Positions 38,922 through 52,938 of a stretch of 62,473 nt of DNA are shown here, in pieces. The notes under the pieces are model-generated. The model did no database searches, was not told the DNA's origin, and saw nothing but the letters and a program-made list of their open reading frames with translations. Made by a program: the position numbers and the translations under genes. The DNA is taken from NCBI GenBank assembly GCA_004102785.1, contig SCEJ01000013.1:1-62473 (forward strand), in the 5' to 3' direction. Source of the stretch: Muribaculaceae bacterium Isolate-013 (NCI) (lineage in GTDB: Bacteria > Bacteroidota > Bacteroidia > Bacteroidales > Muribaculaceae). Positions within the stretch are counted from its first letter, which is position 1; each line of letters starts with the position of its first letter.

Positions 38922-41693
38922 TCAGCCTACCACTATATTCACTATCTTGCCGGGAACCACGATTACCTTGCGCACGGTCTTGCCGTCAAGCCATTTCGCG
39001 GCCCCGGGATCGGCCATGGCGGCCGCCTCAACCTCCTCTTTCGTAGCCGAAGCAGGGAGGGTGAGCGTATAGCGCACTTTGCCGTTGAACGATACGGGAT
39101 ATTTCACGCTGTTCTCAACGAGATATTTCTCATCATGTTCGGGCCAGGAAGCCACTGTGACGCTCTCCCGGTGGCCGAGCTGATGCCAGAGCTCCTCGGC
39201 GATGTGCGGAGCGAACGGCGCAAGGAGCACCACAAGCGGCTCGAGCACAGCGCGCGAGTTGCATTTCATGGAGGTAAGCTCGTTGACGCATATCATGAAA
39301 GCCGCCACCGAGGTGTTGTAGCTGAAGGTCTCGATGTCGCCGGTAACTTTCTTTATCAGCTTGTGCACCGATTTGAGGGCGTCGGCCGAGGGATCCGTGT
39401 CGGTCACGAGCCACTGCTCCCCTTTCCAGAATAGGTTCCAGAATTTGCGGAGGAAGCGGTTCACACCGTCGATACCGTTTGTATCCCACGGCTTCGACTG
39501 CTCTACCGGACCGAGGAACATTTCGTAGAGACGCAGCGTGTCGGCGCCGTAGCGCTCCACTATATCGTCGGGATTCACTACGTTGAACATCGATTTCGAC
39601 ATCTTTTCAACAGCCCATCCACAGATGTATCTGCCATCCTCGAGCACAAACTCGGCGTCGGCGTACTCGGGGCGCCAGGCGCGGAAGGCATCGGTGTCGA
39701 GCACATCGTTCTGCACTATGTTGACATCCACGTGTATCGGGGTGGTGTCGTACTGTTTGCGCAGGCCGGCCGACACGAAGGTGTTCGTATCCTTGATGCG
39801 GTACACAAAGTTGCTCCTGCCCTGAATCATGCCCTGGTTCACGAGCTTGCGGAAGGGTTCGGGCTCACACACGCGGCCCAGATCGTAGAGGAATTTATTC
39901 CAGAAACGCGAGTAGATGAGGTGGCCGGTGGCGTGCTCGGTGCCCCCTACGTAGAGGTCCACCTGGCGCCAGTAGCCGTTGGCCTCGGCCGAAACCAGGG
40001 CCTCGCTGTTGCGCGGATCCATATAGCGCAGATAGTAGGCCGACGAGCCTGCGAAACCGGGCATGGTGTTGAGTTCAAGGGGATATCCCTCTGGGGTACA
40101 CCAGTCCTTGGCACGTCCCAGCGGGGGCTCGCCGCTCTCTGTGGGGAGATATTTGTCAATCTCGGGGAGCTGCAGCGGCAGCGACTCCAGCGGCAGCACC
40201 TGAGGTATGCCGTCCTTATAATATACGGGGAAAGGCTCGCCCCAGTAGCGCTGACGCGAGAAGATGGCATCGCGCAGACGGTAGTTTACCTTCACGCGGC
40301 CTATTCCTTTCTCCTCGATGAATTTCTTGGTGGCCGCTATGGCCTCCTTCACCTCCATGCCGTTGAGGTCGAGCTCGGGGCCGCAGGAATTGGTCATGCG
40401 CCCTTCCTTGGCGTCGAAACTCTCCTCCGACACATCGGCACCCTCGATCAGAGGCACTATCGGGAGGTCGAAATGGCGCGCGAAAGCATAGTCGCGAGAG
40501 TCATGCGCGGGCACAGCCATGATGGCGCCTGTACCGTAGCCGGCAAGCACGTAGTCGCTCACATACACCGGAATCTTCTTGCCCGAAAGGGGATTGATGG
40601 CATAGGCGCCGGTGAACACGCCGCTCACCTTCTTATCCATAAGGCGCTCGCGCTCCGTCTTGCGCTTCACCTCGGTGCGGTAGGCCTCCACAGCCTCGCG
40701 CTGAGCGTCGGTGGTGATCATATCCACATATTTGCTCTCGGGAGCGAGCACCATGAAGGTGACTCCGAACACGGTGTCGGCCCTGGTGGTGAAGATGGTC
40801 ATCTCCACATCCGAGCCGTCGATGCAGAACTGCATCTCGGCGCCCTCCGAGCGCCCTATCCAGTTGCGCTGGGTCTCCTTGATGGAGTCGGACCACTCGA
40901 TAGTCTCCAGGTCGTCGAGCAGACGCGGAGCGTAGGCGCTCACGCGCAGACACCACTGGTACATCAGCTTCTGCTCCACGGGGTAGCCGCCACGCACCGA
41001 TACCCCCTCGCTTACCTCGTCGTTGGCCAGCACAGTGCCGAGTTTGGGGCACCAGTTCACCATCGTGTTGCCAAGGTAGGCGATGCGGTAGTTCATCAGA
41101 GTGTCGCTCTTCTCCTTGTCGGTCATCGCTTTCCACTCCTCGGCTGTAAATTTAAGAGGCTTGGTCTCAGCGGCATGAATCCCCTCCGAACCGTGCTTAT
41201 CAAAGTTTTCAACAAGTTTATCAACAGGCATGGCGCGCTGAAGTTCCGTGTCGTAATAGTGGCCGAACATCTCGATGAAAGCCCACTGTGTCCACTTGTA
41301 ATATTCGGGGTCGCAGGTGCGTATCTCCCGGTCCCAGTCAAACGAGAATCCTATGCGGTCGAGCTGCGAGCGGTAGCGGGCTATGTTCTCGGTAGTGGTT
41401 TTCTCGGGGTGCTGCCCGGTCTGTATTGCATACTGTTCGGCAGGGAGGCCGTAGGCATCGTAGCCCATCGGGTGAAGCACGTTGAAACCCTTCTGGCGCT
41501 TGTAGCGCGCGAAAATATCCGAGGCGATGTAGCCCAGAGGGTGGCCTACGTGCAGCCCTGCACCCGACGGGTAGGGAAACATGTCAAGCACATAGAATTT
41601 GGGCTTTGACTCATCAACCGACACCCGGTAGGTGCCCTCATCTTTCCAGCGCTGCTGCCAGCGCCGCTCTATATCTTTGTGATTATATTCCAT
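38922..41693 (-). CDS. leuS: Leucyl-tRNA synthetase
   Basis: A 923-residue class I synthetase. The HIGH motif is HVGH in [14 protein letters not shown] (about 42-54), the editing domain contains [14 protein letters not shown] and [16 protein letters not shown], and the KMSKS motif is in [11 protein letters not shown] (about residue 696). The anticodon-binding and C-terminal domains are complete. It lies 51 bases downstream of nadA and is probably cotranscribed. Repeated TTCTTATAA units lie between the two genes. Confidence 0.98.
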
Positions 41694-41744: not shown

Positions 41745-42677
41745 TTACGAAAGCGCGAGCATACGCTCGATGGGGCGCACGGCCCTGGCGGCAACCTCCG
41801 GGTCTACCTCTATGGCCGGTGCAAGGTCGCGCAGGCAGTCGCGCAGCTTCTCCATGGTGTTGAGCTTCATGAACGAGCAATCGTTGCAGGCGCAGCCTGC
41901 CTCCTGCGGAGGTGCCGGAATAAACTCTTTGCCGGGGCACTCCTTGCGCATCTGATGGAGTATGCCGCTTTCGGTGACAACTATGAAGCGGCGGGCATCC
42001 GAAGCCTTGGCGAAATCGAGGAGCGCCTTTGTCGAGCCTACCTTGTCGGCAAGGAGGAGCAGGGGCTTCTTGCACTCGGGGTGTGCCAGCACAAGGGCGT
42101 CGGGGTTCTCGCGCTTCAGCTCCATGAGTTTCTCCAGCGAGAACTGCTCGTGCACATGGCAGGCGCCATCCCACAGCAGCATCTGCCGTCCGGTCACCGA
42201 ATTTATATAATTTCCGAGATTCCGGTCGGGTCCGAATATTATTTTCTCGTCGGCGGGAAGCGACTCCACTATTTTGCGGGCGTTCGACGATGTCACCACC
42301 ACATCGGTGAGCGCTTTCACCGCCGCCGATGTGTTGACGTAGCTTACCACCGTGTGCCCCGGATGAGCCTTGATGAAAGCCTCGAACTCATCGGCCGGAC
42401 ACGAGTCGGCCAGCGAGCATCCGGCATTGACGTCGGGCACCAGCACCGTCTTGTCGGGGCAGAGAATCTTCGCCGTCTCCCCCATGAAGTGAACGCCGCA
42501 GAGCACTATCACCCGGTTGGGAAGCGTGCGGGCAATCTGCGCCAGGGCCAGGGAGTCGCCGATAAAATCGGCCACATCCTGGATTTCCCCTTTCTGGTAA
42601 TAATGGGCCAGGATCACGGCGTCGCGTTCCTCTTTCAGACGGAGCACCTCGGAGCGCAGAGAGTTTTCAACATCCAT
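41745..42677 (-). CDS. nadA: Quinolinate synthase
   Basis: A 310-residue [4Fe-4S] enzyme that condenses iminoaspartate with dihydroxyacetone phosphate in NAD synthesis. It shows VILAHYYQKGEIQDVADFIGD, and its three cluster cysteines fall in LCGVHFMGETAKIL, LAHPECKKPLL and GCACNDCSFM. It is upstream of leuS in the same direction; nadB and nadC are not in the window. Its start faces the putative origin. Confidence 0.96.
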   Translation of the reverse strand: MDVENSLRSEVLRLKEERDAVILAHYYQKGEIQDVADFIGDSLALAQIARTLPNRVIVLCGVHFMGETAKILCPDKTVLVPDVNAGCSLADSCPADEFEAFIKAHPGHTVVSYVNTSAAVKALTDVVVTSSNARKIVESLPADEKIIFGPDRNLGNYINSVTGRQMLLWDGACHVHEQFSLEKLMELKRENPDALVLAHPECKKPLLLLADKVGSTKALLDFAKASDARRFIVVTESGILHQMRKECPGKEFIPAPPQEAGCACNDCSFMKLNTMEKLRDCLRDLAPAIEVDPEVAARAVRPIERMLALS

Positions 42678-43320
42678 TTTTTTATATTTTCAATATTTTC
42701 TAAAAAAGAGAAAAATTCTTCCTTCCTGAAAAATCCTCCTCAATAGTAATAAAGGGTGTTGATAACGGTGATAACTTTTCGCCCGCAAATTTGCATTTTC
42801 GGGTTATTGATGCCGAATACCGGGTTATCCGAGGTTATCAACATTGCCATATAATGAGCATCAGCCGATTAATATGGTTATCAACATCTTGTTAAGAATA
42901 TGCAAAGTTAGTAACTTTCCATCATATACACTATTGATAACTCCGGATTTTTGCGTTCAAAACCCTCTGAAATCTCAGGCTGCCTAAATTTGGAGATTCA
43001 CTCCCCCTTGTTTATACGCTCTTCAGGGCTGAACCTCCAAATTTCAGCATCCTTTTCTTTCAATATTCTTTTATCCACCTTTTCCACACACTTATCAACA
43101 TTATCAACACCCCCGCCGGAACTGTCTATTCATTAATTCACGAAGAAACAGCCATACCGCCAAATCAACTTATCCACATCTGATTTCAACACCGTTTTCA
43201 ATATGTTATCAACAATATAAAATTCTGAAACAAAGAGCGCTACATGCTTTATCAACACATTGTTGATAATTGTTTTCAACTTATCAACATTAAAATCAAC
43301 GGTGTCTGGAGGAAGAAAAT
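42678..43320. other. Putative chromosomal replication origin (oriC): DnaA-box cluster
   Basis: This gene-free stretch holds nine exact TTATCAACA (42757 and 43261 on the minus strand; 42835, 42878, 43092, 43101, 43206, 43249 and 43281 on the plus strand) and one TTATCCACA (43170). Near matches are TTATCAATA (42932, minus), TTATCCACC (43071) and TTTTCCACA (43080). Two boxes at 43092 and 43101 are directly adjacent. An AT-rich tract at 42680-42720 could be the unwinding element. A stem-loop candidate lies between two box clusters (42986-43044). The boxes fit the DnaA consensus TTATNCACA with A for C at position 6. parE and nadA flank; dnaA is not in the window. Confidence 0.75.
42986..43044. repeat. 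Inverted repeat in the middle of the putative origin
   Basis: AAATTTGGAG (42986-42995) is a perfect complement of CTCCAAATTT (43035-43044); the match continues imperfectly (ATTCA against TGAAC). The loop is about 40 bases and separates the left and right DnaA-box groups. Confidence 0.6.
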
Positions 43321-43324
43321 TATG

Positions 43325-43475
43325 TAGGACCGGTAGGACTCGTGGGACTTGTGGGACTTGTGGGACTTGTGGGACCTGTGGGACCTGTGGGAGATTTAAT
43401 CAGAACCGGATGGTTCCTACAAGTCCTACAAGTCCTACAAGTCCCACCGGTCCTACCGGTCCCACAACTCCCACC
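43325..43475. repeat. 9-bp tandem repeat hairpin, copy 1
   Basis: The left arm is a run of 9-base units of the GGACTTGTG type (GGACCGGTA, GGACTCGTG, GGACTTGTG three times, GGACCTGTG). The right arm is the complementary run of TCCTACAAG / TCCCACCGG units. The loop reads GAGATTTAATCAGAACCGGA. The arms can pair over about 60 bases. It lies between the DnaA boxes and the stop of the four-helix-bundle gene (43487). Confidence 0.88.
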
Positions 43476-43486
43476 GCCTCGTCGGT

Positions 43487-44038
43487 CTATCGGTTTTGTT
43501 TGCGGTAATCGAGGCGGGCGCGGGTCATCTGCTCGCGTATGCCTCCCTCGGTGAGAAACTGTTGTTGCTGGCGGTCGATGAGTCGCCGCAGCATATATGT
43601 GGCCTGCTGAATAAGGGTGATAGCGAGGTTGGCCGTCTCTTCATCAGACAGACGTGCGATAACATCGTTATAGTCTGAGTTTATTCTTTCGGATGCGGCA
43701 TACCGGCGCATGGATTCATAGCGCGGGTGGCCCTGGCTCCAGCACTCCAGTTGCCGCACACGCAGATAGTCGGTGTAGTCTATAAGCAGTTCTTCGAGAC
43801 TGGCTTTAGCCACGTTTGTGAGTTTTATTTCTGTTTCACGCGAAGTGGTGGAAGCCTCGCTCCCTTCGGCAATGTTCTGTTTGCCCGACCTGGCGGCCTG
43901 AATCATCTGGTCGATTGTGCGGTCACCCTTCCCGAGAAAACGGTTGGCGAAAAAGAAAGTGATATCGTAGATAATCTCTGCCTTGCGATATACTTTCAGT
44001 TTGCGGTAACCGCCGCGATTGGGAAGAAATCCGGCCAT
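43487..44038 (-). CDS. Four-helix-bundle protein with suffix domain
   Basis: A 183-residue protein of the four-helix-bundle family related to proteins encoded in 23S rRNA intervening sequences. It shows YRKLKVYRKAEIIYDITFFF, RTIDQMIQAARSGKQNIAEGSE (the family's hallmark), and SLEELLIDYTDYLRVRQLECW, then a C-terminal helix pair (the suffix) with LIQQATYMLRRLIDRQQQQF. The function is not known; structures are pentameric and nucleic-acid binding has been proposed. Here the gene stands alone between the putative origin and parE and is bracketed by two related hairpin repeats. Confidence 0.85.
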   Translation of the reverse strand: MAGFLPNRGGYRKLKVYRKAEIIYDITFFFANRFLGKGDRTIDQMIQAARSGKQNIAEGSEASTTSRETEIKLTNVAKASLEELLIDYTDYLRVRQLECWSQGHPRYESMRRYAASERINSDYNDVIARLSDEETANLAITLIQQATYMLRRLIDRQQQQFLTEGGIREQMTRARLDYRKQNR

Positions 44039-44074
44039 AGCATCTGTGATTTTAATTGTTAATTATAAATTGAG

Positions 44075-44183
44075 GTGGGACTTGTGGGACTTGTAGGACT
44101 TGTAGGACGGGTGGGAGATTTAAGAGCAGAACCGGATGGCTCCTACAAGTCCTACCGGTCCCACAAGTCCCACTGGTCCCACC
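44075..44183. repeat. 9-bp tandem repeat hairpin, copy 2
   Basis: GTGGGACTTGTGGGACTTGT leads into AGGACTTGTAGGACGGGTGG; the loop GAGATTTAAGAGCAGAACCGG is nearly the same as in copy 1; the right arm is built of TCCTACAAG, TCCTACCGG and TCCCACAAG units. It ends 5 bases before the parE stop (44188). Confidence 0.88.
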
Positions 44184-44187
44184 GGCA

Positions 44188-46155
44188 TCATTCCTCCACC
44201 ACGAGGTTGTCGATTATGAAGAGCTGGCGGTCGGAAGTGTTTTTGCCCATGTAGAATTCGAGCAGCTCCGACACGGCGTCCTCTTTCTTGAGGGTCACGC
44301 GGTCGAGGCGCATGTCGGGGCCGATGAAGCCGCGGAACTCGTCGGGCGAGATTTCGCCCAGACCTTTGAAGCGGGTGATTTCGGCATTGGCTCCCAGGGC
44401 GTCGATGGCGGCCTGGCGCTCGGCGTCGGAGTAGCAGTATGTATCGGCTGATTCGCCGGAGGCGGCGTTTTTGCGGCGAGCCGCGCGTTTGTCGCGCACG
44501 CGGAACAGGGGTGTCTGGAGCACGTAGACGTGCCCTTTCTTCACCATGTCGGGGAAGAACTGGAGGAAGAATGTGAGCAGCAGCAGACGTATGTGCATGC
44601 CGTCGACGTCGGCGTCGGTGGCTATGATCACGTTGTTGTAGCGCAGGCCGTCGATACCGTCCTCTATGTTGAGGGCGGCCTGGAGCAGGTTGAATTCCTC
44701 GTTTTCGTACACCACCTTGCGTGTGAGGCCGAACGAGTTGAGCGGTTTGCCGCGCAGCGAGAACACGGCCTGGGTGTCAACATCGCGTATCTTCGTAATA
44801 GAGCCGGAGGCGGAGTCGCCCTCGGTGATGAATATCGACGATGCGAGTTTCTTTTTCTCCAGTTCGGCGGCGCGCTCCTCGTCCTTGAAATTGTTGGGGT
44901 CGTTGAGGTGTATGCGGCAGTCGCGCAGCTTCGAGTTGTGGAGGTTCACTTTTTTTGCTCTTTCGCGGGCAAGTTTGGTCACTCCGGCCATAGCTTTGCG
45001 CTCGCGTTCGCTCTCCTGTATCTTTTTCTGGAGAATCTCGGCAGTGTCGAGATTTTTGTGCAGATAGTTGTCGAGCTCTTTCTTGAGGAAGTCGCTGATG
45101 AATTTGGCCACTGTCACGCCGCCGGGACTCATCTCGCGCGAGCCCAGCTTGGTTTTTGTCTGCGATTCAAACACCGGCTCCTCAACCTTCACCGACACTG
45201 CGGCAATCATGCCGTTGCGTATGTCGGAGTATTCAAAGTTGCGGCTGAAAAATTCTTTGATAGTGCGCGACACCGACTCCTTGAAGGCTGTAAGGTGCGT
45301 GCCCCCCTGGGTGGTGTGCTGCCCGTTGACGAAGGAGTAGTACTCTTCGCCGTACTGGTTGGCGTGGGTGAGTGCTATCTCTATGTCGTCTCCCCGCAGG
45401 TGTATCACCGGATAGAGGGGGTCCTTGGTCATGTTGGCTTTCAGAAGGTCGAGCAGGCCGTTGCGCGACACGAATTTCTTGCCGTTGAAATATATCGCCA
45501 GCCCGGTGTTGAGATAGGTGTAGTTGCGTATCAGCGTCACGATATATTCCTGGTTGAAGCTGAATCCGCGGAACACCGTGGGGTCGGGGGTGAATTCCAC
45601 ATATGTGCCGTTGGGCTGGTCGGTGTCGGTTTCGGGAGTCTCCTCCACCAGGGCGCCGCGGGCGAAGGTGGCCGTGCGCATGCGTCCGTCGCGGCAGGCG
45701 CGTATCACGAACGAGGTCGACAGGGCATTTACGGCCTTGATGCCCACGCCGTTTAGACCTACCGATTTCTTGAATACCTTGGAATCATATTTGGCGCCGG
45801 TGTTCATGCGCGAGGCCACATCGACGATTTTGCCCAGGGGCACGCCGCGCCCGTAGTCGCGCACCGACACGGTGCCGGTGTCGGGGTCGAGCGTCACGTC
45901 TACCTGGCGTCCGTAGCCCATCATGAACTCGTCGATGGCATTGTCGAGCACCTCCTTTAGCAGCACGTAGATACCGTCGTCAGAATCGGTGCCGTCGCCG
46001 AGCTTGCCTATATACATGCCCGGGCGCAGGCGTATGTGCTCTTTCCAGTCGAGTGTGCGTATGGTTTCCTCGCCGTAGTCGGCCTGCGGCGCGGAGGTGT
46101 CGGGAGCCGTCTGGGCGGCCTGGAATATATCTTTTTCCTCAGAGTTCTCTGGCAT
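44188..46155 (-). CDS. parE: DNA topoisomerase IV subunit B
   Basis: A 655-residue type IIA topoisomerase ATPase subunit needed to unlink daughter chromosomes. GHKL ATPase motifs are [15 protein letters not shown] and [13 protein letters not shown]; the transducer has [11 protein letters not shown]; the Toprim domain has [16 protein letters not shown] and [34 protein letters not shown] matches the ParE type of Bacteroidetes; GyrB has a different N-terminus. I chose the ATG at 46155, since the frame before it opens with TTG. A perfect promoter lies at 46213-46182. parC is not adjacent. Confidence 0.92.
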
Positions 46156-46181
46156 ATTCAAGTCTTTCAGTTAGATTCACA

Positions 46182-52835: not shown

Positions 52836-52850
52836 CGGCGGCAGCGGCGG

Positions 52851-52938
52851 TGGGACGGGTAGGACCGGTAGGACTTGTAGGAGCAGTGGGAGCCTCCCAC
52901 CAGTCCTACAAGTCCCACAAGTCCCACTGGTCCTACTA
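52851..52938. repeat. 9-bp tandem repeat hairpin, copy 3
   Basis: GTGGGACGGGTAGGACCGGT then AGGACTTGTAGGA; loop GCAGTGGGAGCCTCC; right arm CAGTCCTACAAGTCCCACAA then GTCCCACTGGTCCTAC. It sits exactly between the convergent stops of dgt (52835) and the lipoprotein gene (52947). The loop differs from copies 1 and 2. Confidence 0.85.

Follow-up and report, generated by a model that had tools for sequence, protein, structure and literature searches.

The window, which is the whole 62,473-nucleotide stretch of DNA analysed from a Muribaculaceae bacterium, contains a gene-free interval bounded by the start of nadA at 42677 and by the end of the next likely gene at 43487, leaving aside a mechanical open reading frame (ORF), antisense to nadA, that extends to 42746. 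The genes and features of the locus are collected in Table 1. On one side nadA is followed by leuS, and the same order is present in a relative assembled as one contig (G117), whose leuS ORF was identified by eye because it resembles that of the window. On the other side, an ORF for a four-helix-bundle protein separates the proposed origin from a type IIA topoisomerase gene. For the latter, the best NCBIfam models are GyrB and then ParE, every one scoring under its curated cut-off. The site had originally been placed beside nadA and parE; the first neighbour stands, but the four-helix-bundle ORF intervenes before the second, for which the name parE is not settled.

Table 1. Genes and sequence features around the proposed origin (positions in the window).
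Feature	Position	Strand	Remarks
leuS	38922..41693	-	NCBIfam equivalog above cut-off; after nadA here and in G117
nadA, quinolinate synthase	41745..42677	-	NCBIfam equivalog above cut-off; Pfam; conserved origin neighbour
Proposed chromosomal origin (oriC)	42678..43290		From nadA start to repeat array; box cluster and relatives' skew switch
AT-rich tract, candidate duplex-unwinding element	42680..42740		Putative role
DnaA-trio-like triplets TTA TTA CTA TTG	42741..42752	-	After 4-nt CCCT spacer
DnaA box TTATCAACA	42757..42765	-	Next to trio-like triplets; candidate unwinding-system box
DnaA box TTATCAACA, left group	42835..42843	+	Spacing to neighbour boxes recurs in relatives
DnaA box TTATCAACA	42878..42886	+	Sits within 33-nt conserved core
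33-nt conserved core TAACTTTGCA-N14-TGTTGATAA	42878..42910	-	Contains box 42878-42886
Imperfect inverted repeat	42968..43062		Between the two box groups; arms 42968-43000 / 43030-43062
Right group: TTTTCCACA and tandem TTATCAACA	43080..43109	+	TTTTCCACA at 43080; TTATCAACA at 43092 and 43101
Sole classical DnaA box TTATCCACA in cluster	43170..43178	+
Right group TTATCAACA	43206..43289		At 43206+, 43249+, 43261- and 43281+
Four-helix-bundle ORF (23S IVP-like, suffix domain)	43487..44038	-	TIGR04258 81 bits, cut-off 40; PF05635 below cut-off
Type IIA topoisomerase B subunit, parE/gyrB-like	44188..46161	-	Pfam; below NCBIfam cut-offs

A 9-nt unit, GTGGGACTT or a variant of it, is repeated in arrays that form facing inverted pairs in the window at approximately 43324-43476, 44074-44185, and 52850-52936, and the four-helix-bundle ORF next to the proposed origin stands between two of these pairs. 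A 20-mer of the repeat has 40 matches with at most one mismatch on 11 contigs of the same genome, and its reversed control has 0.

The original prediction described ten DnaA boxes in about 530 bases of a gene-free region, in two groups parted by an inverted repeat and adjoining an AT-rich tract, and this description proved accurate. Nine exact copies of TTATCAACA and one of TTATCCACA fall within the 533 bp between 42757 and 43289, and the inverted repeat has a DNA fold z-score of -3.85, which was equalled by 1 of 200 shuffles. The AT content is 88% at 42680-42719 and 62% at 42720-42759; by sequence composition, an AT-rich element of the kind expected of an oriC adjoins the boxes. The near matches, of which at least three had been announced, were located as TTATCAATA at 42932, TTTTCCACA at 43080, and TTTTCAACA at 42664, but the last one lies inside nadA. 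An extra (tenth) TTATCAACA at 41218, within leuS, is not part of the cluster.

The rarity of such an assemblage by chance was also borne out: TTATCAACA is expected 0.25 times in the full 62-kb window (shuffle mean), with a maximum of 2 over 100 shuffles. The genome of the isolate (3,306,093 bases in 385 contigs) holds 86 exact TTATCMACA versus 49 for the reversed-pattern control, and 10 of the 86 fall in these 533 bp, the sole dense exact-box cluster genome-wide. Inspection of the 86 exact matches gave no second site with more than two per 500 bp, and the only other box pairs at most 500 bp apart among those listed are C53:25797/25817 and C100:24451/24827. A box density as high as this at many other places between genes had been named as grounds for giving up the origin, and for exact boxes it is not seen genome-wide; what is present is an intergenic cluster of DnaA boxes beyond chance, as looked for in an oriC. 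The loci datA and DARS titrate or reactivate DnaA, and the many boxes in so short a stretch could belong to a locus of this type, near the origin but not at it. Such an identity is highly improbable, as the genome would be left without another dense exact-box cluster to serve as origin and as the GC skew of two relatives, G084 and G117, switches 2-3 kb from nadA (described below).

The boxes recur at the same place in related genomes. In the best 80 of 594 named NadA loci, nearly all from Bacteroidales (one, L050, is labelled Ruminococcus), TTATC[AC]ACA occurs at 70 sites within 500 bp upstream of nadA, which corresponds to 1.84 per kb, and at 0-0.14 per kb in every downstream bin and more than 2 kb upstream. 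Box variants were counted over 700 bp upstream in 75 of the 80 loci, 5 loci with short flanks being dropped. TTATCAACA was found 64 times versus 3.9 expected and TTATCCACA just 7 times versus 1.2 expected, in agreement with the lineage preference for A that had been suspected, and the variants TTATTAACA, TTTTCAACA, and TTATCTACA were found 48 (2.2 expected), 45 (2.6), and 26 (0.8) times. At position 6 these boxes take A, T, or G, and the C of the classical box is rare there. In the family, 119 genomes including that of the isolate were searched for NadA and 113 were positive; from these 113 the 30 best-scoring loci were drawn, the isolate's own among them. At least one exact box lies within 1.5 kb upstream of nadA in 25 of the 30 and none in 5; the comparison across relatives that had been proposed thus confirms the recurrence of the boxes, but not at every locus. 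Inter-box distances, such as 43 and 78 bp, also recur among the 30 loci.

The basal unwinding system (BUS) is defined as a box that has three or more 3'-NAN-5' triplets no farther than 16 bp away, the gap being GC-rich and about 4 long (PMC8287927), and the trio motif that follows the GC cluster is given as 3'-[G/A]A[T/A]-5' (PMC7561715). In the window, a box, a 4-nt spacer, and trio-like triplets span 42741-42765 and are oriented to the AT-rich DNA. Three strict trios and four consecutive loose NAN triplets are present behind the spacer of 4 (shuffle P 0.004), so that a box has three or more 3'-NAN-5' trios inside the 16-bp limit. The triplets with a middle A are the complementary-strand reading of TTATTA.

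The trios were aligned in 20 of the 30 best-scoring family nadA loci, the window included; 5 loci without boxes, 3 duplicating a box layout already kept, and 2 of another layout were left out. The order of nadA-proximal box, short spacer, and TTATTA is found in 15 of the 20 aligned loci. At least three strict trios occur in 13 of the 20 selected loci (mean 2.85 versus 0.99 in shuffles) and fewer in 7, with none in L111 and L114, and at least three loose triplets occur in 18 of the 20, a count made without shuffle comparison. Of 75 loci, 20 have the pattern TYNACA-N2-6-TTATTAY in the 600 bp upstream of nadA, the expectation being 0.006 per locus. A BUS-like element thus appears to be kept at the same place in relatives, clearly but not universally, and the layout of box, spacer, trios, and AT-rich DNA fits, as far as sequence goes, the published system. 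According to the excerpted accounts of the BUS of Bacillus subtilis and others (PMC8287927, PMC7561715), it has in common with the window the box, the GC-rich spacer of about 4, the middle-A triplets, and the AT-rich DNA. Unlike the Bacillus subtilis type, the element predicted from the sequence of the window has only three strict triplets and no adjacent dnaA.

A second conserved element is the 33-nt core. The core pattern TAACTTYGYR-N10-16-TGTNNATAA is matched in 85 of the 119 genomes, mostly with a length of 33 nt, and its reversed control gives 5 matches. Of the 91 core matches, 76 are on the nadA strand and less than 600 bp upstream of the gene, and 15 lie elsewhere; the core is found at nadA in 76 of the 113 nadA-bearing family genomes, and in its exact pattern it is missing there in 37, including G084 and the same-genus G004, G008, and G012. 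The Bacteroides -7 promoter element is TAnnTTTG, and TAACTTTG inside the core presumably resembles it. Furthermore, a core-related word, TTATTAACTTYGY, has the nadA-sense orientation in all 40 of its matches close to nadA. The conserved core may hold the nadA promoter; a scan for sigma-70 promoters and terminators gave nothing clearly over shuffles. From the -7-like word and the uniform orientation it could be argued that the region is a DnaA-regulated nadA promoter, through which DnaA would control NAD synthesis, and not an origin. We consider this very unlikely, given that ten boxes and a trio-like element would exceed the needs of a promoter. The nadA promoter may instead lie inside oriC, both readings then being true.

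The dispersed 9-nt repeat arrays and the four-helix-bundle ORF alongside could in turn be taken as marks of an integrated element or plasmid that brought its own origin. Synteny contradicts this, with nadA-leuS on the flank and the core conserved at nadA in the family, and no plasmid or phage initiator was found among the seven neighbouring proteins scanned; such a provenance is scarcely credible.

GC skew was examined in relatives because the assembly of the isolate, with its 385 contigs, cannot be ordered. Twenty 20-kb stretches were sampled in each of G117 (1 contig) and G084 (3 contigs), and in both genomes the skew flips sign 2-3 kb upstream of nadA. In G084, 9 of 9 stretches are negative over 1.40-2.88 Mb and 9 of 10 are positive on the other arm, the stretch straddling the nadA site being left out of the arm counts; when gene strands are balanced, the figures become 9 of 9 negative and 10 of 10 positive. 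The 1-kb bins are negative in 12 of 12 cases at 2934-2945 kb and positive in 8 of 8 at 2946-2953 kb, so that the sign changes from the 2945 to the 2946 kb bin, some 2 kb away from position 2,944,226, where nadA starts. The reverse change falls somewhere in the interval 1.22-1.40 Mb, roughly half a chromosome from nadA. In G117, 8 of 9 stretches are negative to the left of the site and 8 of 8 are positive at 1.45-2.59 Mb, two stretches close to the presumed terminus being mixed, and 1-kb bins are negative in 6 of 7 cases up to 1377 kb and positive in 13 of 13 beyond. Four boxes of this genome lie at 1376669-1377033 beside pgi and two at 1380067-1380140 directly upstream of nadA (1380238); the boxes of G117 and G084 are those among the matches listed (50 and 100 places), and denser clusters elsewhere are possible.

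Among the other relatives, Bacteroides oleiciplenus (contig NZ_JH992941.1) has 7 of 7 stretches negative up to 1.06 Mb and 2 of 2 positive after 1.20 Mb, and its nadA, at about 1.111 Mb, falls within this coarse switch interval. Around nadA in G119 and G121, the stretches sampled gave no clear large-scale switch, and in G020 the skew switches locally in the opposite direction, with boxes absent at nadA. Five stretches of a further genome, G142, were set aside because the contig they come from lacks nadA. The skew supports an origin near nadA in 3 of the 6 relatives sampled around that gene, including both assemblies of one to three contigs. Within the window itself, cumulative skew reaches its minimum at 42-44 kb and is almost as low at 50-52 kb, which is weak evidence, and the local gene-strand-balanced skew is -0.023 on the left and +0.060 on the right, a small contrast.

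The region 42678-43290 is very probably the chromosomal replication origin, oriC, of this Bacteroidales bacterium, our confidence being slightly tempered because only three of the six sampled relatives give clear support. The original prediction of a putative origin is supported mostly by the relatives' skew and by box conservation upstream of nadA; the GC-skew minimum that it called for was found at the orthologous place in G117 and G084 and, coarsely, in Bacteroides oleiciplenus. At this origin, DnaA, encoded on another contig, would bind both groups of boxes, which are mostly TTATCAACA. Starting at the box at 42757-42765, DnaA would polymerise over the 4-nt spacer onto the triplets at 42741-42752, toward nadA, and would open the AT-rich tract at 42680-42740 on the nadA side. 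Helicases would then load at the opened tract and two forks would depart in opposite directions, while the right box group and the hairpin may serve accessory or regulatory roles.

The DnaA of the isolate (TIGR00362, 454 bits) is encoded on contig C230. An origin beside dnaA was considered and rejected, as the gene lies on a contig other than that of the cluster and is far from nadA in G117 (about 0.60 Mb) and in G084 (about 1.05 Mb if the main contig is circular). The site had correctly been described as away from dnaA and as one that dnaA-anchored searches would miss, but the latter point is not new. In the excerpted report on Prevotella intermedia (PMC4755523), which cites DoriC, oriC is stated to lie commonly far from dnaA in the phylum Bacteroidetes, and because dnaA-distant origins have already been reported there, the oriC described here is a further case of a known type. 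The first-chromosome oriC of Prevotella intermedia OMA14 in that report likewise has multiple boxes at a GC-skew transition and a distant dnaA; it was predicted with the Escherichia coli box, one mismatch being allowed, and the excerpt mentions neither a nadA neighbour nor an A-type box nor a trio, so that the two origins are likened by description. The cyanobacterial TTTTCCACA origins, as portrayed in the part of PMC6323995 concerned, likewise use a lineage-specific DnaA box, but this is another box and they are usually adjacent to dnaN. For the present origin, the arrangement of the locus is now mapped, together with its altered DnaA-binding word and a likely unwinding element, and no description of the nadA link, the 33-nt core, or the parA pair (see below) was recognised in a literature search of limited depth.

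The altered word has a possible counterpart in the protein. The segment SRNHATV of the isolate's DnaA aligns to GRDHTTV of the best PDB match, 8btg, in which the residues concerned are named D433, H434, and T435 (Escherichia coli numbering) in the excerpted PMC7561715. Residue 433 is N, T, or S and residue 435 is A in 3 of 3 family members (L001, L135, and L136). D433 and A435 are present in 4 of 4 DnaA proteins of other Bacteroidales (three Bacteroides and one Paludibacter). Elsewhere in the phylum, 29 of 30 loci (the 30 best-scoring from 61 genomes, one being unreadable) have D at 433 and S or T at 435. According to the part of PMC8235120 concerned, D433 is highly conserved among all classes and is assigned to box position 7. 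The boxes differ at position 6 instead, so that a causal tie between the change of DnaA and that of the box is only a possibility.

Another conserved box arrangement lies upstream of parA. The 260 bp upstream of parA contain the pair TTATCAACA-N11-TTATCAACA, with at most two mismatches, in 21 of the 29 family loci that could be used, where it lies approximately 105-160 bp from the gene; the isolate's own parA-like gene is G000:C342:80069-80821. The sample comprised the 30 best-scoring parA-like loci from 59 family genomes (L157, L158, and L287-L314), 29 of them with enough flank, and the query protein scores under the ParA model cut-offs. In the control, one shuffle per locus always left 4 or more mismatches, and each of the remaining spacer lengths between 5 and 20 was found in at most 3 loci. 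The pair made parA a second candidate for the origin, which was rejected, since the skew has the same sign on both sides of parA, 0.93 Mb from nadA in G117 and 0.59 Mb in G084. With conserved pairs of DnaA boxes at parA too, the presence of boxes is not in itself proof of an origin. The pair upstream of parA, a gene that in G084 and G117 is not where the skew switches, would also suit the view that DnaA merely regulates nadA, but in both genomes the sign changes close to nadA rather than at parA.

The pair suggests, on its conservation and spacing, that chromosome segregation could be under DnaA control through parA. A broader proposal is that the DnaA and the origin of the family have changed their binding word together and that the altered pair with its 11-nt gap puts parA under DnaA control, tying segregation to initiation; we offer it tentatively, as an idea that is possible but rather doubtful. 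The origin itself is ordinary but well marked, and the two testable side findings, DnaA residue 433 and the parA pair, are more interesting, the altered DnaA residues together with the altered box constituting a natural test of DnaA specificity. In practical terms, nadA-leuS together with the 33-nt core provides an anchor for finding origins in fragmented Bacteroidales assemblies. Read-depth methods for estimating growth rate need origin positions, and the exact bases are named here for testing.

Two further observations may be recorded. In G117, the DnaA ATPase model has 25 weak matches, all equal in length, which probably represent IstB-like helper proteins belonging to one IS element. At G000:C53:25797-25825 (L104), the same box pair with an 11-nt gap occurs beside a lysozyme-like ORF (named by eye), with parA absent, and this region is possibly a prophage or mobile element.
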